Origin: Candidatus Aquidulcis sp.
Lineage (GTDB): Bacteria > Chloroflexota > Anaerolineae > UBA4142
Assembly (NCBI GenBank): GCA_020723345.1
Contig: DYJA01000043.1
Span: 1 to 50,875 of the forward strand
Length of the DNA: 50,875 nucleotides
Reading direction: 5' to 3'
Shown: positions 16,784 to 26,035 of the stretch, piece after piece
Layout: each line of letters opens with the position of its first letter
How positions within the stretch are numbered: the first letter of the stretch is position 1
Notes under the pieces: generated by a model
Seen by the model: only the letters and a program-made list of their open reading frames with translations
Told to the model about the DNA's origin: nothing
Databases searched by the model: none
Made by a program: the position numbers and the translations under genes

Positions 16784-17578
16784 ATGGGACACATCAAGGG
16801 ATTTATTTTCGATCTCGACGGTACGGTGTATCTGAGCGATCACGCGTTGCCCGGCGCGGTGGAAACGATTGCCGAAATTCGCGCGCGCGGACTCAAATGC
16901 GTTTTCATTTCCAACAAACCGCTCGAACCGGGCAGCGCGTACGCGGCGAAATTGACGCGGCTCGGCATTCCCGCGACGCCGGAGGATGTGATCACGTCGG
17001 CGCGCGTACTGCTCGCGTATTTTCAGCGCCACGCGCCGGACGCGCGCATCTTCGTCATCGGCGAGCCGCCTTTGTGGGAAGAGATGCGCGCGGCGCGTTT
17101 GCGCTTGACCGAAGACCCGGCGCAAATCGAGTACGTCGTCGCCGCGTTCGACCGCACATTCGACTATCGCAAATGGAACATCGCGTTCCAGGCGATCAAG
17201 TTTCACGGCGCGCATTTCGTCGCGACGAACGCGGACAAATCGTGTCCCGTTGACGGCGGCGAGATTCCAGATTGCGCGGGCATCATCGCCGCGCTGGAAG
17301 CGACGACCGGCAGACAAGTGGAATTCGTCGCGGGCAAACCATCGCCGCTGATCATTCAGACCGGCGTCGAGCAGATGGGTGTGCGCGTCGAGGAATGTCT
17401 CGTCGTCGGCGACCGCCTGGAAACGGATATGGTGATGGGACGCGCGGCGGGCGCGCGCACCGCGCTCGTGCTGACCGGCGTGACCAAACGCGAACATCTC
17501 GCGCACGCCGCGGCGCAGCCGGATTACGTTTTGGAAAATATCGGCGAGATTCAGCGTGTGATATTAGGCAATCAGTGA
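16784..17578 (+). CDS. HAD-IIA family sugar-phosphate phosphatase (NagD/AraL-like)
   Basis: This 264-residue protein has the catalytic FIFDLDGTVYLS (nucleophile Asp plus Asp+2), motif II at VFISNKP, the C2-type cap characteristic of HAD-IIA, and motif IV at CLVVGDRLETDMVMG. Conserved VAGKPSPLII supplies the motif III Lys. HAD-IIA enzymes dephosphorylate small phosphates such as glycerol phosphate, sugar phosphates or p-nitrophenyl phosphate. The position behind a UgpA/E-like transporter hints at a glycerol-phosphate or sugar-phosphate substrate (inference). ATG 16784 is chosen because FIFDLDG must lie near the N-terminus. Confidence 0.9.
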   Translation: MGHIKGFIFDLDGTVYLSDHALPGAVETIAEIRARGLKCVFISNKPLEPGSAYAAKLTRLGIPATPEDVITSARVLLAYFQRHAPDARIFVIGEPPLWEEMRAARLRLTEDPAQIEYVVAAFDRTFDYRKWNIAFQAIKFHGAHFVATNADKSCPVDGGEIPDCAGIIAALEATTGRQVEFVAGKPSPLIIQTGVEQMGVRVEECLVVGDRLETDMVMGRAAGARTALVLTGVTKREHLAHAAAQPDYVLENIGEIQRVILGNQ

Positions 17579-17674
17579 ATCAGTCAATCGGTCAATCGGT
17601 CAATCGGTCAATCGGTCAATCAGTGGGTCAGTTCCTGATTGCCTGATTGCCTGATTGCCTGATTGCCTGATTAC
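17573..17674. repeat. two 8-bp tandem arrays
   Basis: An array of TCAATCGG units (about five, 17584-17620) is followed by an array of CTGATTGC units (about five, 17635-17673). The second array is partly the inverse complement of GGCAATCAG at 17566-17574, so the region can form long hairpins. The arrays fill the space between two convergent genes. Confidence 0.85.
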
Positions 17675-18993
17675 GGGTTCCCTCTCCCAACCTCTAGCAT
17701 TTCGCGCCACACATTTAACGCCTCCTCGTTGACACGCCGCGCGCGCGCTTGCAATTCGCGCGCGCGTGTCGCGTCTGCCGACGGCGGCGTGAAACGGCGC
17801 GCGAGCAGACACGCGAACCACTCGCGCGTCAGCGTGTCCTGCGCGTTTCTGTACTCTTCCGATTGCGCCAACGTCCGGCGATACGCTTGGCGCACGAATT
17901 CCGCGCGCGCGTCGGCAAGTGTGTACGGAATTTGCCACGTGGTGTCATCGCATCTTCCTTCATCGCGCAGACGATTGGCGAGCGGCGTGCCGGGATAAAT
18001 TTCGACTTGGCGAAAATCGAACGCGGTCGAACAATTCGGCAAAACGCTTTGCAGAAAATCAACCTCGGCGCGCATTGTTTCCAGCGTACTCCACGGATGA
18101 ATGATCAGTGCGCGAAAATCCGCGACGATGCCGAGCGCGTCCAGCATCGCGAGCGCGTCCGCGTTTTGTCGCGCGGTGACGCGCTTGTTGTACAAATCGA
18201 GCGTCGCTTGGTCGCCCGACTCGATGCCGGTGTACACGCGCAGCAGTCCGATTTCGCGCAGTTGGCGGAAAAGCGTTTCGTCCACGTCGTCGGCGCGGCA
18301 TTTGATCGTGAACGCGATTTGCAAATCGCGGCGCGCGAGTTCGTCCGCGAACGCGGCGACGCGTTCTCCGCGCGCGAGTCGCGGCGGCAAAAACTGTTCG
18401 TCGTCGAAAAGAAACAGGCGTGCGCCTTGCCGGTGCAGCGATTCGATTTCGTCGATGAGATGCGCGATGCCGCGCGGGCGGTACGGCGCGCCGTACGCGC
18501 GATAAAACGCGCTGGGGAGACAAAACGCGCACGCGTGATAACAACCACAACTCGCTACGACGGTCGCGAACCCGTAACCCAGGTACGACGCGATGCCGTC
18601 GTCGCGCGCGGGGAAGGGAAGGGAATCGAGATTAGAGATTAGAGATTGGCAGGAAATTGAATCGAGCGCGGGACACGCGGCGCGCAGTTCGGCGGCGGCG
18701 AGCGCGGGCAAATGTCCGGTGAGCGCGAGGTGCGCATGCGGACACGCGGCGCGCAGCGCAGTCATCAGCGCGAGGATTTCGTCCGCGCGGTCGGCAAAGA
18801 GAATCGACGCGACGATCAGGCGCGGCAGCGCGCGCTTGGCGAGCGCGACAATCGCGTCCGCGCCGTCGTTCAGGTCGACGAGATGCGCGCGCAAACCGTC
18901 GCGCCGCAAGATCGCGGCGAGATAGCGCGCCGGTAGTTTTTGCTGACCCAGGTCTTCGACGATCAGCGCGTCAACAGACGACGACGGTTCCAT
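17671..18993 (-). CDS. B12-binding-type radical SAM protein (A)
   Basis: The N-terminal half resembles a cobalamin-binding Rossmann domain (DALIVEDLGQQKLPARYLAAI ending in RLIVASILFADRADEILALM). The SAM cluster CGCYHACAFC (C-x3-C-x2-C) follows near residue 150. The C-terminal barrel shows LFLFDDEQFLPP, FTIKCRADDVDETLFRQL, VYTGIESGDQATLDLYNK and ALIIHPWSTLE, as in B12-radical SAM methyltransferase-like enzymes. The domain layout is shared with the gene at 19910-21475, so they are paralogues. Its start (ATG 18993) overlaps the 3' end of the CDP-repeat gene by 23 bases. By family it could methylate or otherwise modify an unreactive carbon; the substrate is unknown. Confidence 0.85.
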   Translation of the reverse strand: MEPSSSVDALIVEDLGQQKLPARYLAAILRRDGLRAHLVDLNDGADAIVALAKRALPRLIVASILFADRADEILALMTALRAACPHAHLALTGHLPALAAAELRAACPALDSISCQSLISNLDSLPFPARDDGIASYLGYGFATVVASCGCYHACAFCLPSAFYRAYGAPYRPRGIAHLIDEIESLHRQGARLFLFDDEQFLPPRLARGERVAAFADELARRDLQIAFTIKCRADDVDETLFRQLREIGLLRVYTGIESGDQATLDLYNKRVTARQNADALAMLDALGIVADFRALIIHPWSTLETMRAEVDFLQSVLPNCSTAFDFRQVEIYPGTPLANRLRDEGRCDDTTWQIPYTLADARAEFVRQAYRRTLAQSEEYRNAQDTLTREWFACLLARRFTPPSADATRARELQARARRVNEEALNVWREMLEVGRGNP

Positions 18994-19873
18994 CTTCGGT
19001 GACTGCGAGCGTGAGCGCGTCGACGGCAAGCCCCTCCGCGCCCCAGTCCGCGACGAGTTGCACGAGGTAACGCCCCGGCTCGGTTGGCGGAACCCAGGAC
19101 ACGTGATCGGCTTGCTCGATCAGTTTTCCGCCGGACGCGCTCCAGCGATAGCGCGCGTCCGCCCAGGGCGAATCGGCTTGGAACGTCAAGTCGTCATGCC
19201 AAACAATATCCACGAATCGAATTTCGGCGAGCGGCAAGGGAGAAGGCGGTGCAAGTTCAACCCATTCGATATTCGCGACGTCGAACTGTTTGAGTTGCAA
19301 TGGCAGCGCGCTATTCTTGTCACCGCCAACGATGAGTGTGTATGCCCCCGGCTCCGGGACGCGCACGAAAAACGAACCGTTGCGCGCCGTTGTGGCGTCA
19401 ATGATTGTCCCGGCTGATTGCACCGTGATCTTTACTTCGCCCAGCGGCTGCCCTTGCGCGTCGAAAACGTTGCCGCGCACTGCCGCGCCTTTCAACGTCG
19501 TGTCGGTTGACATTTGCAAAGCGCGCAATTGAAAGCGGCGTTGCATAGCCGGTGTGGCGGTTGCAGGTGTGCTCGTGCGCGGCGGTGGCGGCGGATCGCA
19601 AATCACCGGCGATCTGGTTGGCGTGACGCGCGGGGGCGGCGCGGGATCACAAATGACTGGCGTTCGCGGGCGCGCTGGCGTCAGTGACGGCGGCGGCGCG
19701 GGATCGCAGATGATCGGACTGGGCGGCGGTAACGGCGTGAAGGTGCGCGGCGGCGGAGGTGGATCGCAAATCAGCGGCGGACAACAACGCGTCGTCGCCG
19801 AACTGCCAGACACTACCAGCAAAGCCAGGATTGCTCTTTGCGTCTCTTTGGAAAGTTTGTGCCAGGGGAGCAT
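18971..19873 (-). CDS. exported protein with four Cys-Asp-Pro repeats and a CarboxypepD_reg-like domain
   Basis: ATG 19873 is chosen because AAGGAG lies six bases upstream. After a short N-terminus with a weak hydrophobic stretch (ILALLVVSGSSATT) come four repeats built on (L/V/I)ICDP(P/A)PPP(R/S) separated by Thr/Pro spacers, at about residues 32-105. A carboxypeptidase-regulatory-like beta domain follows (VRGNVFDAQGQPLGEVKITV ending ARNGSFFVRVPEPGAYTLIV), then a C-terminal Ig-like region (ADARYRWSASGGKLIEQ, PGRYLVQLVADWG). The protein ends in a lone Cys. Each repeat carries exactly one Cys-Asp. It sits between two B12-radical SAM genes in one operon, so the repeats may be their substrate (inference). 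Confidence 0.75.
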   Translation of the reverse strand: MLPWHKLSKETQRAILALLVVSGSSATTRCCPPLICDPPPPPRTFTPLPPPSPIICDPAPPPSLTPARPRTPVICDPAPPPRVTPTRSPVICDPPPPPRTSTPATATPAMQRRFQLRALQMSTDTTLKGAAVRGNVFDAQGQPLGEVKITVQSAGTIIDATTARNGSFFVRVPEPGAYTLIVGGDKNSALPLQLKQFDVANIEWVELAPPSPLPLAEIRFVDIVWHDDLTFQADSPWADARYRWSASGGKLIEQADHVSWVPPTEPGRYLVQLVADWGAEGLAVDALTLAVTEDGTVVVC

Positions 19874-19888
19874 GGGCATCTCCTTGTT

Positions 19889-19910
19889 GGACAAATTTGC
19901 AAATTTGTCC
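19889..19910. repeat. 22-bp perfect palindrome
   Basis: GGACAAATTTG faces CAAATTTGTCC without a spacer. The palindrome ends at the stop codon of the upstream radical SAM gene and precedes the start of the CDP-repeat gene. A relative (GGTTTGCAAATTTGCCCC) occurs at about 48182-48199, so it is a dispersed element and may also act as an RNA hairpin within the operon. Confidence 0.75.
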
Positions 19911-21475
19911 TACGTTTCAAGACTCATCGTCATTTGATCTCGCCACTTTTCCAATTCCAACTGCGCGCCCACGTCAAACAAATTGACGCGGTTCGCCCAC
20001 GCGGCGACTTGATCATTCACGCGGTTCGCGTCGTAAATATTTTCGCGCAGCGTAAAGTCGAGCATTTCGGCAAGCGTCGCGAGCGAATGATTGTTCACGC
20101 GCGCGACGAGATCGCGCAAGCGCGCGATGAGTTTTGGATCGACGCGATCGCGCATCCGATATTTGTACATCGTCACTTCGTAGCACGCGAGCGAACATTG
20201 CTTGCCGATTCCGGTGTTGTCGTAGTGCCGGTGCCGCAGCGCGGCGAACATCATCCGAAACAACAACTCGACGCGCGGATCGGCAATTGTATAATTCCAC
20301 GCGAGATAATCGCCGGTGAGACGTCCTTCGCGCGTCAAGCGTTCCAACATCGGCGTGCCGGCGTACACTTCCATCCGCCCGAAACTGAGCGGCGCTTGAC
20401 CGTCGCCCGCCATCGCGCGGAAAAAATCGAGGTTCGCGCGCACGTCTTCGATTGTGCTGTCCGGATCGAAAAAGATCAAGCCGAAATCCGCGAGCATCCC
20501 GACGCGATGGAGCGTTTCGAGCGCGCGCTGATTCTGCGCGACCGTCGTTTTCTTATTGAGCGTTCGCAAACTGTGATCGGAGCCAGATTCAACGCCGACG
20601 TACGCGCGCGTCACGCCGAGATCGAGCAAGCGGCGAAAAAGATTTTCGTCAATGTCGTCGGCGCGGCACTTTATGCTCATTATCAAATCGAGTTTGCGCC
20701 GCGCGAGTTCGCGTTCCAAATCATCAATGCGTTTGACGCGCGCGTCGCCGGGCGGAAACCACTCGTCGTCGTTGAAAATGAAAAAGCGGACGCCGGATTG
20801 GAGGTACAGCGTTTCCATTTCGTCCACGAGGTTTGGCACGCTGCGAAAACGCTGGAGCGCGCCGCGACTGCCGCCGTAAAACGCGCGGATGCTGCAAAAC
20901 GCGCAATCGCGATAACAGCCGCGACTGCCGACGATGGGCGACACGCCGATGCCGAGATGTTGCTGCGGCGGCGTATCGCGCGAGGGAAAAGGGAGCGCGT
21001 CGAGATCGGGAATGAGCGGACGCGGCGCGTTGTCGATCACGCGACCATCACGCCGAAACGACAGACCCAGGATCCGATCCCAGGTCTCCGGCGCGTCGAG
21101 TTGCTGCACGAGTTCGAGGAGCGTCAATTCACCTTCGCCGCGCACGACGGAATCGAGCGCGGGATAATCGCACAAGAGTTCGCGCGCGGTGAACGTCGCA
21201 AAGTGTCCGCCGGTCGTGATGTGCGTGCGGGGAAGGACGCGGCGCAGTTCGTCGGCGAGCGCGAGGAATTCCGGCGCGCGATACTGAAAGATGATCGAAA
21301 GTCCAACGAGGCGCGGCTGGACGATCTGGGCGCGTTGCACCACCGCGTCCATTTCGTCCGCCGTACTGAACGGCGCGATCTCGACGGTGAAGCCGTGTTG
21401 CCGCAGCACCGCCGCGAGGTAACGCGTGCTCAGGTTTTCCAGTTCTTCCGCGCCGACGAGCAGAACGTCGAGCAT
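19910..21475 (-). CDS. B12-binding-type radical SAM protein (B)
   Basis: This 521-residue protein has an N-terminal cobalamin-binding-like domain (LVGAEELENLSTRYLAAVL, VGLSIIFQYRAPEFLALA, THITTGGHFATF). The cluster GSRGCYRDCAFCSIRAFYGG follows near residue 210. Barrel motifs are FFIFNDDEWFPP, MSIKCRADDIDENLFRRL, AYVGVESGSDHSLRTLNK and GLIFFDPDSTIEDVRANLDF. It is longer than its paralogue at 17671-18993 because of an extra C-terminal region (RDRVDPKLIARLRDLVARVN). AGGAG precedes ATG 21475. It is the first gene of a three-gene minus-strand operon with the CDP-repeat protein. Confidence 0.88.
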   Translation of the reverse strand: MLDVLLVGAEELENLSTRYLAAVLRQHGFTVEIAPFSTADEMDAVVQRAQIVQPRLVGLSIIFQYRAPEFLALADELRRVLPRTHITTGGHFATFTARELLCDYPALDSVVRGEGELTLLELVQQLDAPETWDRILGLSFRRDGRVIDNAPRPLIPDLDALPFPSRDTPPQQHLGIGVSPIVGSRGCYRDCAFCSIRAFYGGSRGALQRFRSVPNLVDEMETLYLQSGVRFFIFNDDEWFPPGDARVKRIDDLERELARRKLDLIMSIKCRADDIDENLFRRLLDLGVTRAYVGVESGSDHSLRTLNKKTTVAQNQRALETLHRVGMLADFGLIFFDPDSTIEDVRANLDFFRAMAGDGQAPLSFGRMEVYAGTPMLERLTREGRLTGDYLAWNYTIADPRVELLFRMMFAALRHRHYDNTGIGKQCSLACYEVTMYKYRMRDRVDPKLIARLRDLVARVNNHSLATLAEMLDFTLRENIYDANRVNDQVAAWANRVNLFDVGAQLELEKWRDQMTMSLET

Positions 21476-21509
21476 CGTTGCTCCTGTGGTGAAGATTAGA
21501 GATTGGAGA

Positions 21510-21538
21510 TTGCCAAGCGTTTTGTTGTGTGGTAGAAT
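21510..21538 (+). promoter_or_regulatory. promoter TTGCCA-17-TAGAAT
   Basis: TTGCCA (21510-21515) and TAGAAT (21533-21538) with a 17-base spacer lie 22 bases before the MNT gene start and should drive the MNT-HEPN pair. Confidence 0.65.
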
Positions 21539-21560
21539 TGAGTCACAAAAGGAAATACAA

Positions 21561-22076
21561 ATGTCTCGTATTCAAATGTCCGAATCAGGAATGGCGATTG
21601 GTCGTCGGACCTTTCTCAATGAAGCGGTTGCCCGATTGCGTGATGCGCTTGGTGAAAATTTAATCGGCATTGTGTTATACGGTTCGTACGCGCGGGGCGA
21701 GGCGCGCCCGGAGAGCGACGTTGATCTGCTCGTCATCGCGCGGGGCTTGCCTGAGAAATGGTACGATCGCCAAATCTATTTGCACCACCCGCTGAAAGGC
21801 ATCGCGGATGCGCCGCCGATTCTCGCGCTGGGCAAGCTCCCCGAAGAATTCGAGAAGCATTTTCCCTCCCTCTATCTGGACATCGGTCTGGATGGAGTGA
21901 TATTGTACGACAAGGACGATTATACCGCACGTAAACTCGAACGCATCCGCGAAATCATCAAGGAATCGGGACTAGTGCGCGAACGTCTTGACGAGAACAA
22001 TATGTTCTGGGATTGGACGCGCGCGCCGCGGCAACATTGGGAGATCACCTGGGAGGGCTATCGTGAACTCGCGTGA
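21561..22076 (+). CDS. MNT-type nucleotidyltransferase (antitoxin of HEPN-MNT pair)
   Basis: This 171-residue minimal nucleotidyltransferase has the helix AVARLRDALGENLIGIVLYG and the catalytic GSYARGEARPESDVDLLVI (GS, then D-x-D). Beyond the core it has an extension with LALGKLPEEFEKHFPSLYLD. In HEPN-MNT toxin-antitoxin systems the MNT protein AMPylates a Tyr of the HEPN RNase and so silences it. ATG 21561 follows AAAGGAAATACAA. The stop overlaps the start of the HEPN gene, the usual translational coupling. Confidence 0.85.
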   Translation: MSRIQMSESGMAIGRRTFLNEAVARLRDALGENLIGIVLYGSYARGEARPESDVDLLVIARGLPEKWYDRQIYLHHPLKGIADAPPILALGKLPEEFEKHFPSLYLDIGLDGVILYDKDDYTARKLERIREIIKESGLVRERLDENNMFWDWTRAPRQHWEITWEGYRELA

Positions 22077-22497
22077 CGATGCCGCGTTTCGGCTTGATCT
22101 TGCCCAGGGTTATCTCACTCGCGCCGAGAGCGATGCGCGCGAGAAAAGATGGGACAGTTGCCTGGCGAACGCGCAGCAGGCGGTGGAAAACGCAGGCAAA
22201 TCCATCTTGGCGCATTTTCGTCCAACTCCTCAGGCGCATGATGTAATCGAGCCGCTTGAAAAACTGCTCAAACTTGACGGTGTGCCGCAGATGATCAAAC
22301 AACGATTGGCATCCGCGCTCGATGATTTTCGCAATATGGGAATGAAGACGCACGTTCGTGCGACCTATGGCGACGAGAGTACGCATACTCCGCCGTGGAA
22401 ACTCATTCGAGAGCAGGAAGCCCTGGGCGGTCTCGCCAAGGCGCAGCGCACGGTGACGCTTGCAGAAACGATCTTTGCGGAGATGACAAAAGGATGA
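22063..22497 (+). CDS. HEPN-domain protein (candidate RNase toxin)
   Basis: This 144-residue all-helical HEPN domain shows DLAQGYLTRAESDAREKRWD, then ANAQQAVENAGKSILAHF, then DDFRNMGMKTHVRATYGDES. The sequence RNMGMKTH is an R-x6-H catalytic motif of HEPN RNases. A Tyr five residues after the His (HVRATY) is well placed to be the AMPylation target of the partner. The start is GTG 22063, with GGGAGGG upstream and 14 bases of overlap with the MNT gene. A terminator follows. Confidence 0.85.
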   Translation: MNSRDDAAFRLDLAQGYLTRAESDAREKRWDSCLANAQQAVENAGKSILAHFRPTPQAHDVIEPLEKLLKLDGVPQMIKQRLASALDDFRNMGMKTHVRATYGDESTHTPPWKLIREQEALGGLAKAQRTVTLAETIFAEMTKG

Positions 22498-23015: not shown

Positions 23016-23798
23016 TCAGTAGATCAACTGCGCGCGCGTATCCATGTCTTTGCGCGACATCGAGCCGACGCGAATCGCGCGGATCACCCCGAGGCGGTCA
23101 ATGAAAAAACTCGTTGGAAAAGCGCGAATGTTGTACTGTTTGTTCACGCGATTTTCCTCGTCCCACAAGATCGGAAAGCGGAGTCCTTGCTTTTGAACGA
23201 ACGATTCCGCGCCGGCGCGATCTTTGTCGCCGGTGTTGACCGCCAACACAATCAGTCCTTGTCGCGACGACGCGTCCAAGTAGAGCGCGTTCAAATCGGA
23301 CATTTCATTCCGGCAAGGTCCGCACCACGATGCCCAAAAATTCACGACGATCGGTTTGCCGCGCAGTCCGGTCAAACTCATCGTGCGCCCATTCGAATCG
23401 CGCAAAGCAAAGTCGGGCGCGATCTGTCCGAGTTTGACGCCGACGGTCGGCGTTGCGTTGGTGGGAATTTCGGTGAGTTGTTCGTCTTGCGCTAGATCGC
23501 TGGGGAAAAGAATCAAGAGGATCGCAAAGACGCACACGCACAAGGACAACAATCCCAGGATGCCGACGCAACCGATCGCGCACGTCCGCGTGAAATTGCG
23601 TTTGGGTTTCTCAAACGGATAGCCGCAATGCGTGCAGATTTGCGCGAACGTAAAATTGTCGGCGCTGCACTTGGGGCAGCGCTTGTACTCAACCGCCGCC
23701 GGAGCGGCGAATCCTGGGTTCAATCGCCCGCAGCGTGGACAAAACCGCGCACCTTCGTCAACGGTATTGCCGCAATTTGAGCACATTTGAATCGGCAT
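23016..23798 (-). CDS. zinc-ribbon, membrane-anchored TlpA/ResA-like thioredoxin
   Basis: This 260-residue protein begins with two zinc ribbons (CSNCG...CPRCG and CPKC...CTHCG, residues 5-60). A membrane helix follows (IGCVGILGLLSLCVCVFAIL, about 75-100), then a TlpA-like domain: APDFALRDSNGRTMSLTGL, then FWASWCGPCRNEMSDL with the redox CxxC, and a cis-Pro near AFPTSFFID. The helix places the zinc ribbons inside and the thioredoxin outside, where it could reduce disulfides or haem apoproteins. ATG 23798 is chosen because the zinc ribbon starts at residue 6 and GGTGG precedes it. Confidence 0.88.
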   Translation of the reverse strand: MPIQMCSNCGNTVDEGARFCPRCGRLNPGFAAPAAVEYKRCPKCSADNFTFAQICTHCGYPFEKPKRNFTRTCAIGCVGILGLLSLCVCVFAILLILFPSDLAQDEQLTEIPTNATPTVGVKLGQIAPDFALRDSNGRTMSLTGLRGKPIVVNFWASWCGPCRNEMSDLNALYLDASSRQGLIVLAVNTGDKDRAGAESFVQKQGLRFPILWDEENRVNKQYNIRAFPTSFFIDRLGVIRAIRVGSMSRKDMDTRAQLIY

Positions 23799-23830
23799 CG
23801 TCGCCACCTGTTGTCCTGATCGCGCAATCG

Positions 23831-26035
23831 CTAGTTCTTTTTCTTCAGTTCGTCCAAGACGCGCCACGGCGTCAACGGAAATTCGTCGCACCAGACGCCG
23901 GTCGCGTCGTGGACTGCCGCGACAATCGCCGGCGCGAGTGGAATGAACGGCATCTCTGCCATGCCGCGCGCGCCCCAAGGTCCATCGCGGTCCGGGTATT
24001 CGAGAATCACCGAATCCACCTTATCCGGCACGTCGAGAATTCCTGGGATCAAATAGGTGCTGAAATATGGCGTGAGCACGCGTCCGTCTTTCGTCTGGAA
24101 ATTTTCCTGAATCGTCCAGCCCTGCGCCTGCGCGACTGCGCCTTCGATCTGTCCTTCGATCATGCGCGGATTGATCGCCTTGCCGACATCGTCGACCGAA
24201 GTGACGCGCACGACGCGCACCTGACCCGTTTCGGTGTCGACTTCTACCTCGACCGCTTGCGCGACGTAACCGTACGCGACATTCGGTTTCGATTTGCCAG
24301 TTTCGGGATCAAAGTTCGTCGTTGGCGGCGCGAGGTACTGGTACGATGCAATCGCGGGGCGCTCCTCGTCGCTCCATTTTTTCAGCGCGAGTTCGCACGC
24401 GCCCTTGATCGCGTTGCCGCCCATGTACGTCATGCGCGAGGCGGACACGCTACCGGCGTTGCCGGTTTGCGCGGTATCGGAAACGATCATCTCGATTTTT
24501 TCGATGGGCACGCCGAGCGCGCTTGCCGCCATTTGCGCGAGCGCGGTGTGCGTCCCTTGTCCGACTTCTGCCGCCGCGTGATGCACGATCACTTTATCGA
24601 TTGTCGCGTCGCCGTGCAATTCGACGGTCGCCGCCGCGTTTTCCTGATAGCCGAACGAAAAGCCGATGTTTTTGAGCGCGCACGCGAAACCGAAACCCGT
24701 GACGCGTCCTGAGCGGAGCGGAGCGGAGTCGAAGGATGCGTGTTGCGTATTGCGCGAATTCCTCTGAGTTCCCCCAGTTCCTTTTCCCTTCCACCCAAAT
24801 TCCTTCGCGCAACGTTCGACAACTTGGGGTAGACTTACATTCCCACCGGGCAACGGCGTTTGCGTTGAGAGCAGTGATCCTGCGCGCAAAACATTTTTCA
24901 AGCGCAGTTCAACTGGATCGATACCCAGTTTTTCCGCGAGTTTGTTCATCTGCGTTTCGGCGGCAAAGTGCGCTTGCGGTCCGCCAAAGCCGCGAAACGC
25001 GCCGCTGACAATATTGTTCGTCGCGACTGTGTACGCGTCCACATGTACGTTTGGCACCGCGTACGGTCCCGTCGCGCCGAACGCGGCGTTACCCAAAACT
25101 TTCGGCGAAGTGTACATGTACGGTCCCGCGTCGGAAATGATCTGCACTTGCGCCGCGACGAGTTTGCCGTCGCGCGTCGCGCCGAGTTTGTGCGTGATCC
25201 ACATCGGATGGCGTTTGTGATGTCCGATCATGCTTTCTTCGCGCGACCAGATGATCTTGATCGGACGATTCAATTTCCACGCGGCAAGTGCGAGAATGAC
25301 CTGCACGCTCATATCTTCGCGGCCGCCGAACGCGCCGCCGGTCGCCGGATAGATCACGCGCACCTTGTCGAGCGGCAACCCCAGCGCGTGCGCGATTTGC
25401 TCCTGGTCTTCGTGCACCCACTGCCCGCCGACGACGACCGTCACGCGCCCCACATCGTCGATGGACGCGACTCCGGCTTCGGGTTGTAAGTACGCGTGTT
25501 CTTGGTACGGCGTGTGGTAATCGCCTTCCATAATCACGTCCGCTTGCGCGAAACCTTGCGCGATATCGCCTTTGCGAATCGGAATGTGCTTGATCACGTT
25601 GTTCGCGTACGCCGGATGCACTTGCGGCGCGCCGGATTTCATCGCGTCGCGCGGATCGGTGAGCGGCGGCAAGTCTGCGTACTCGACCGCGATCAAATCG
25701 CGCGCGTGTTCCGCTTGCTTTTCGGTCTCCGCGACGACGAGCGCGATCTTTTCGCCGACCCAGCGGATTTCGTCGCCGTTCAGCACGGGCGCGTCTTTCG
25801 AGCCGAGTCCAAATTCGTTGACCGGCACATCGCGCGCGGTGAAAACGCGCACGACGCCCGGCGCGGTTTGCGCTTTCGACACGTCGAGGCGCTTGATCCG
25901 CGCGTGCGGTCGCCGCGCGAACAACACTTTCATCCAAAGTTGTCCCGGCAGATTGATGTCGCCGGGAAAGAGCGCGTCGCCAGTTACTTTGGCGCGCGCG
26001 TCAATGCGGGTGATGGATTCACCGAGTTGGGTCAT
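23831..26035 (-). CDS. xanthine dehydrogenase/aldehyde oxidase family molybdenum-binding subunit
   Basis: The 734-residue protein has the small N-terminal domain (GDALFPGDINLPGQLWMKVL, ARRPHARIKRLDVSKA) and molybdopterin contacts ATGGAFGGREDMSVQVILAL, VSGAFRGFGGPQAHF and AAEVGQGTHTALAQMA. The catalytic-Glu region is ARGMAEMPFIPLAPAIVAAV. Such subunits hydroxylate purines or aldehydes and need FAD and 2Fe-2S partners, neither of which is in this window. Residues encoded near 24700-24760 (NTQHASFDSAPLRSGRV) do not fit the family and come from an inserted repeat. ATG 26035 overlaps the PolX stop (ATGA), so the two are translationally coupled. Confidence 0.88.
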   Translation of the reverse strand: MTQLGESITRIDARAKVTGDALFPGDINLPGQLWMKVLFARRPHARIKRLDVSKAQTAPGVVRVFTARDVPVNEFGLGSKDAPVLNGDEIRWVGEKIALVVAETEKQAEHARDLIAVEYADLPPLTDPRDAMKSGAPQVHPAYANNVIKHIPIRKGDIAQGFAQADVIMEGDYHTPYQEHAYLQPEAGVASIDDVGRVTVVVGGQWVHEDQEQIAHALGLPLDKVRVIYPATGGAFGGREDMSVQVILALAAWKLNRPIKIIWSREESMIGHHKRHPMWITHKLGATRDGKLVAAQVQIISDAGPYMYTSPKVLGNAAFGATGPYAVPNVHVDAYTVATNNIVSGAFRGFGGPQAHFAAETQMNKLAEKLGIDPVELRLKNVLRAGSLLSTQTPLPGGNVSLPQVVERCAKEFGWKGKGTGGTQRNSRNTQHASFDSAPLRSGRVTGFGFACALKNIGFSFGYQENAAATVELHGDATIDKVIVHHAAAEVGQGTHTALAQMAASALGVPIEKIEMIVSDTAQTGNAGSVSASRMTYMGGNAIKGACELALKKWSDEERPAIASYQYLAPPTTNFDPETGKSKPNVAYGYVAQAVEVEVDTETGQVRVVRVTSVDDVGKAINPRMIEGQIEGAVAQAQGWTIQENFQTKDGRVLTPYFSTYLIPGILDVPDKVDSVILEYPDRDGPWGARGMAEMPFIPLAPAIVAAVHDATGVWCDEFPLTPWRVLDELKKKN
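24707..24736. repeat. palindromic repeat inserted in frame in the molybdenum subunit gene
   Basis: This is an expanded variant of the CCTGAGCG-GTCGAAGG repeat, with three AGCGG units (TCCTGAGCGGAGCGG...GAAGGA), followed by GTGTTGCGTATTGCGCG. It encodes part of a roughly 30-residue stretch that does not resemble the enzyme family. Confidence 0.7.

Follow-up and report, generated by a model that had tools for sequence, protein, structure and literature searches.

The stretch analysed here (the window) is the 50,875 nucleotides of contig DYJA01000043.1 from the 6.34-Mb draft genome of Candidatus Aquidulcis sp. (G000), and it encodes on the minus strand a tightly packed operon (21475-17671) in the order rSAM-A, CDP-repeat protein and rSAM-B. 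A preliminary description of this DNA had read it as one minus-strand operon in which two paralogous CxxxCxxC B12 radical SAM genes enclose the CDP gene, and the open reading frames and Pfam matches both agree. The features are the following:

19910 to 21475, minus strand: rSAM-A, 521 aa, class-1 cobalamin-dependent radical SAM enzyme by Pfam, cassette identity, AlphaFold and fold matches, the proposed modifier; B12-binding domain at residues 5-122, radical SAM core C187xxxC191xxC194, C-terminal helical domain at about 400-520
18971 to 19873, minus strand: CDP-repeat protein, 300 aa, the proposed substrate
19750 to 19771, minus strand: motif 1, ICDPPPP, with Cys36 of the CDP protein
19690 to 19711, minus strand: motif 2, ICDPAPP, with Cys56 of the CDP protein
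19633 to 19654, minus strand: motif 3, ICDPAPP, with Cys75 of the CDP protein
19582 to 19603, minus strand: motif 4, ICDPPPP, with Cys92 of the CDP protein
17671 to 18993, minus strand: rSAM-B, 440 aa, B12-radical SAM paralogue of rSAM-A, accessory

The last part of the CDP gene overlaps the start of rSAM-B, the ATG start of the CDP gene is preceded by AAGGAG, and the G+C content of the cassette is 61.5% compared with 56.3% in the window. Directly 3' of the operon (17569-17672) lie two 8-bp tandem arrays, CAATCGGT repeated 6.6 times and CCTGATTG repeated 4.9 times. Divergent from the operon, positions 21426-22497 hold a gene pair for a nucleotidyltransferase (PF01909) and a HEPN protein (PF05168), likely an MNT-HEPN toxin-antitoxin module judging from these domains. 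The protein encoded at positions 23016-23978 joins a TlpA/AhpC-type thioredoxin domain to a zinc ribbon and a membrane-like stretch.

The CDP protein of the window has a signal-like N-terminus (MLPWHKLSKETQRAILALLVVSGSSATTRCC), made up of basic and hydrophobic parts followed by CC, and a Pro/Thr/Arg-rich stalk bearing four ICDP(P/A)PPP units (in order ICDPPPPP, ICDPAPPP, ICDPAPPP and ICDPPPPP). The four near-identical units with one Cys each and the terminal Cys that had been described are all present, and a C-terminal Cys is common to only two of the seven relatives. Beyond the stalk follow a CarboxypepD_reg-like domain (PF13620, 9.6e-9) and, at the C-terminus, an Ig-like domain that weakly resembles BiPBP_C/PKD. 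The relatives (n = 7) are 186-311 aa long and carry two to four motif copies each, with Cys nearly restricted to the N-terminal (lipobox) Cys and the motifs. When the whole genome was searched with a degenerate DNA pattern, four motif sites were found, all of them in the CDP gene. Among the 23 motif copies of the seven homologues, I/V and D were kept in 23, and C and P in 22 each, while the codons used were mixed (TGC/TGT, GAT/GAC and all CCN). At the fixed motif positions of the four window copies, all pairwise comparisons together give 17 codon differences that are synonymous and none that is non-synonymous, and the spacers between the motifs are unequal in both length and sequence. The synonymous-only differences and the variable spacers indicate that the motif is kept at the protein level and does not reflect recent DNA duplication; the motif is, as far as its codons tell, under selection.

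A lipobox-like Cys ahead of the first motif in six of the seven repeat proteins suggests that the CDP product is probably a surface lipoprotein, and the surface location proposed earlier is consistent with this. The lipoboxes were judged by eye, using the pattern [LVIAT][AST][AGS]C near the N-terminus, as acceptable in six (LTGC, VTSC, TASC, ATGC, TLAC and TAAC) and as poor in the window (TTRC), where the Arg at -1 counts against lipidation as part of our favoured explanation. The genome of the window encodes Lgt, with two PF01790 matches (7.1e-62 and 1.2e-31). In most relatives, the lipid anchor would most likely be placed on the Cys just before the first motif. The operon had been described as lacking a peptidase and a transporter, and a comparison of the surroundings among the cassette genomes likewise found neither conserved beside the cassette; Sec export followed by lipidation would explain their absence.

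The rSAM-A product matches the B12-binding (PF02310, 2.2e-21) and Radical_SAM (PF04055, 1.6e-14) families of Pfam, and the three Cys of its CxxxCxxC cluster motif (CYRDCAFC) are invariant in 13 sequences. The AlphaFold model built with 13 sequences reached a pLDDT of 89.8 (57 with five sequences) and has a class-1 cobalamin-dependent radical SAM fold. It superimposes on OxsB with a Z of 25.6 (rmsd 4.4 over 477), on MgmA with a Z of 24.7 (rmsd 3.0 over 365 residues), on TsrM with a Z of 22.4 and on TokK with a Z of 20.3, and AprD4 and CysS are also among the closest solved structures. By its domains, cluster motif and predicted fold, rSAM-A is a class-1 cobalamin-dependent radical SAM enzyme, which would need cobalamin and SAM for activity. 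No curated cut-off was reached for the NCBIfam B12-radical SAM subfamilies BchE, ApyD, HpnR, ArsL, rSAM_ocin_1 and MgmA: the best score was 163.7 bits against 481 (BchE, for the A protein of G405), followed by 111 against 750 for ApyD and 84 against 282 for rSAM_ocin_1.

The order A-CDP-B is identical in five Chloroflexota genomes (G000, which is that of the window, G008, G012, G025 and G108), whose flanks are unrelated, so that across the compared stretches the common unit consists of these three genes alone. The A proteins of the four other cassettes are 70-77% identical to the window copy; identity was 51-55% for rSAM-B and, in the first four cassettes found, 53-68% for the CDP protein. Counting true hits for the CDP profile and full-strength hits for the A profile, both searches of the class sample (396 genomes) picked out the same five genomes. 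A further sample of 400 phylum genomes contributed two more A relatives from outside the class, in G467 and G405. In G467, A is directly followed by a 204-aa CDP protein with a lipobox-like ETAAC, two ICDPVPPP motifs and the C-terminal domain of the cassette proteins, without the CarboxypepD_reg domain and without a B gene. In G405, no fitting CDP gene is adjacent to A; the motif search of the genome found three motifs in one open reading frame on a different contig. Both ends of this frame align with the cassette CDP proteins at 41-47% identity, and it too lacks CarboxypepD_reg. Thus, A and a CDP protein occur together in all seven genomes with a close A, linked in six and unlinked in G405.

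Because the two G405 genes lie on separate contigs, the co-occurrence appears independent of linkage, although this case is not airtight, since the G405 assembly is a draft and about 8% contaminated. As physical linkage holds for six of the seven pairs, the co-occurrence may also partly reflect inheritance as one unit. The genome-wide co-occurrence of CDP proteins with the radical SAM genes, raised earlier as a check, thus held for A in seven of seven genomes, and CDP-repeat proteins common without these enzymes were not found in the 396 class genomes. Outside the class sample, CDP proteins without A were sought only with a narrow double-motif DNA pattern (spacer 20-50 nt, 400 phylum genomes), the spacer limits of which were too narrow to recover even G405 and G467; the sole other match in the phylum sample (G636) looks like chance. 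Weak CDP matches in G033, G034, G051, G052 and G091 and a second one in G000 are Thr/Pro-rich or CarboxypepD_reg-like, with no repeated motif where read, and a profile match in G149, which covers only 50 positions within a far longer frame, was not counted as a CDP protein. Single motif matches on G467:C112 and G032:C4 look like chance. No CDP relatives were found in viral contigs or plasmids, and the genome contig collection yielded only the G012 record.

Phylogenetically, A and B separate into two groups with full support for each. Where the A, B and CDP trees have support, they share one branching order, joining G000 to G008 first and G012 next, which fits a cassette travelling as a unit, within a small sample. 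Neither the motif nor a close A was found in the same-genus genomes G001 and G092; this patchy presence, with gaps even within the genus, suggests that the cassette is often lost or transferred. Two weaker A-profile matches of the class sample lie in G066 and G032. The one in G032 (L039, 7906-9808) is a B12-radical SAM protein with 40% identity, for which ApyD was the best named match (134 bits); its gene lies after a 68-aa helical open reading frame and upstream of a probable metallopeptidase gene and another B12-radical SAM gene, possibly a RiPP-like locus by its gene content.

The rSAM-B product matches PF04055 (4e-11) and PF02310 (3.3e-9) and has the cluster motif CYHACAFC. In G008, G012 and G025 rSAM-B is full length. 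Set against its relatives, the window copy is short of about 40 residues that follow the B12 domain, and its C-terminus is incomplete; in both the window and G108 about 40-65 residues are missing between the B12 and radical SAM domains, so rSAM-B may be decaying or functionally altered in these two genomes. The short sequence CAATCTCTAATCT occurs just upstream of rSAM-A (21493-21505) and inside rSAM-B (18629-18650), at the exact spot of the about 40 residues missing relative to the relatives; from its position, it looks like a small repeat that has replaced part of the rSAM-B gene. A profile search of G405 and G467 found no rSAM-B, which rules out A and B as an obligate enzyme pair and leaves A and the CDP protein as the constant core, with B accessory. 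The pairing of both radical SAM genes with the repeat protein, as originally put forward, thus stands for A and fails for B, which is absent in two genomes and shortened in two. The match in G066 (L038, 4354-8731) is an orphan rSAM-B, 71% identical to that of G025, beside a HEAT-repeat ATPase-like gene.

The conserved cassette, the co-occurrence of A with the CDP protein, the protein-level conservation of the motif, the predicted class-1 fold and the near-confinement of Cys lead us to propose that A and the CDP protein are a dedicated enzyme-substrate pair, in which the motif would be altered before export and the protein then displayed, with a probability of roughly 0.6. Since A is always accompanied by a CDP-repeat protein, it most likely alters the ICDPxPP motifs chemically. 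On the other side, two of the four motifs in G012 are degenerate (IFDPPPPP and ICDIPPSP), the orphan B of G066 stands in a genome in which neither rSAM-A nor a CDP motif was found, and Pfam reported no RiPP recognition element in A or B, an element that is often missed when divergent; these observations count against the enzyme-substrate reading.

Linkage could also be all that unites the genes of the cassette: the targets of the radical SAM enzymes would be a lipid, a cofactor or some other protein, and the CDP protein would be a surface lipoprotein with a role of its own, binding metal or forming disulfides via its Cys motifs. The orphan B, the A-like proteins with other neighbours (e.g., in G032) and the presence of lipid-modifying enzymes among the close sequence relatives would fit this. 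It is nevertheless unlikely, given that the co-occurrence holds when unlinked (G405) and without B, and that a short repeated motif is kept at the protein level beside one enzyme in several classes.

As a sub-case of the enzyme-substrate reading, A could, instead of methylating, form in each motif a PapB-like thioether from the Cys sulfur to the beta-carbon of the neighbouring Asp; no part of the motif is as constant as Cys-Asp. PapB is an enzyme of a different, non-B12 type, and neither A nor B has a SPASM match in Pfam up to E 1. We see this chemistry as a real alternative, though an improbable one. In vitro, PapB accepts Cys-Xn-Asp with n = 0-6, but favoured CX3D over CX0D when offered both (PMC9413430); a B12-radical SAM enzyme, ThnL, has been reported as thioether-forming (PMC13331322).

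Alternatively, the CDP protein could be a carrier or tether, with A (and B) building or transforming a small molecule that is held on the motif cysteines and shown at the surface. One reactive Cys per repeat with hardly any Cys elsewhere would suit such a role, as would the closeness of A to small-molecule enzymes in fold (OxsB, AprD4 and CysS) and to BchE and HpnR in sequence. However, the cassette has no conserved biosynthetic, ligase or transferase gene at its side and two genomes make do with A and the CDP protein, so we regard a carrier as improbable. Chance pairing of a low-complexity Pro-rich lipoprotein with B12-radical SAM genes is very hard to credit: Pro/Thr-rich stalks and such genes are each common in these genomes, but gene order is identical in five of them, the trees agree where supported and presence matches across 396 genomes.

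Under the enzyme-substrate reading, rSAM-A would act in the cytoplasm on the newly made CDP protein, modifying each ICDPxPPP unit once (two to four sites per chain), and rSAM-B might perform a second step or aid A. The CDP protein would then leave the cytoplasm by Sec, receive a lipid, most likely at the Cys preceding the first motif, and be presented on its Pro-rich stalk with the Ig-like C-terminal domain. We infer the motif as the site of modification, its alteration before export and the lipid anchor alike. The fuller picture is a cell-envelope system rather than a secreted peptide, in which the Cys-Asp-Pro repeats along a surface lipoprotein's stalk are iteratively modified by a B12 radical SAM enzyme, with as few as two genes and a patchy distribution over several Chloroflexota classes; we offer it tentatively, at somewhat short of even odds. 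If the motif is modified, C-methylation at Cys, Asp or Pro is the most likely reaction, with about half of the weight, and a Cys-Asp thioether is our next guess. C-methylation is the default and commonest reaction of B12-radical SAM enzymes. In bottromycin, such enzymes methylate Pro, Val and Phe (PMC5682303), and other B12-radical SAM enzymes perform ring contraction, ring formation and thioether formation (PMC13331322).

The preliminary description had likened the operon to RiPP systems. The gene pairing (linked in six of seven genomes) fits that likeness, but not in the usual sense: the long exported product (186-311 aa), with folded domains including the C-terminal one, the lack of need for a leader peptidase and the absence of a conserved peptidase or transporter rule out a classic RiPP. 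If A works on an exported lipoprotein, radical SAM protein modification would be extended to the bacterial cell surface. For most B12-radical SAM sequences the substrate is, to our knowledge, not known; here genome data alone suffice to name a likely substrate, with a defined short motif in several copies and a minimal system of two genes, which makes the reaction of A directly testable in E. coli.

The ICDPxPPP motif was not found in the literature searched, and we could match the A-CDP pair to no described system, its unusual element being the exported, repeat-bearing proposed substrate. rSAM-A shares the B12 domain, CxxxCxxC core and fold (Z 20-26) of the class-1 cobalamin-dependent enzymes OxsB, TsrM, TokK, CysS and MgmA, but is only 14-21% identical to them and is linked to a repeat-bearing exported protein. 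MgmA, the methyl-coenzyme M reductase glutamine C-methyltransferase (TIGR04014), is a B12-radical SAM enzyme acting on a large protein substrate, as proposed for A; nevertheless, rSAM-A scores 71 bits against its cut-off of 360, and the MgmA substrate is the cytoplasmic methyl-coenzyme M reductase rather than an exported repeat protein. In the ranthipeptide system PapA/PapB, one radical SAM enzyme serves several Cys/Asp motifs per chain and accepts adjacent Cys-Asp in vitro (PMC9413430), whereas the PapB motif is CX3D and PapA is a precursor peptide rather than an exported lipoprotein. The B12-radical SAM methyltransferases of bottromycin and polytheonamide (e.g., PoyC) C-methylate residues including Pro in a ribosomal chain (PMC5682303); their substrates are short processed precursors of antibiotics encoded in large clusters, whereas here a lone pair or trio of genes includes that of an exported protein.
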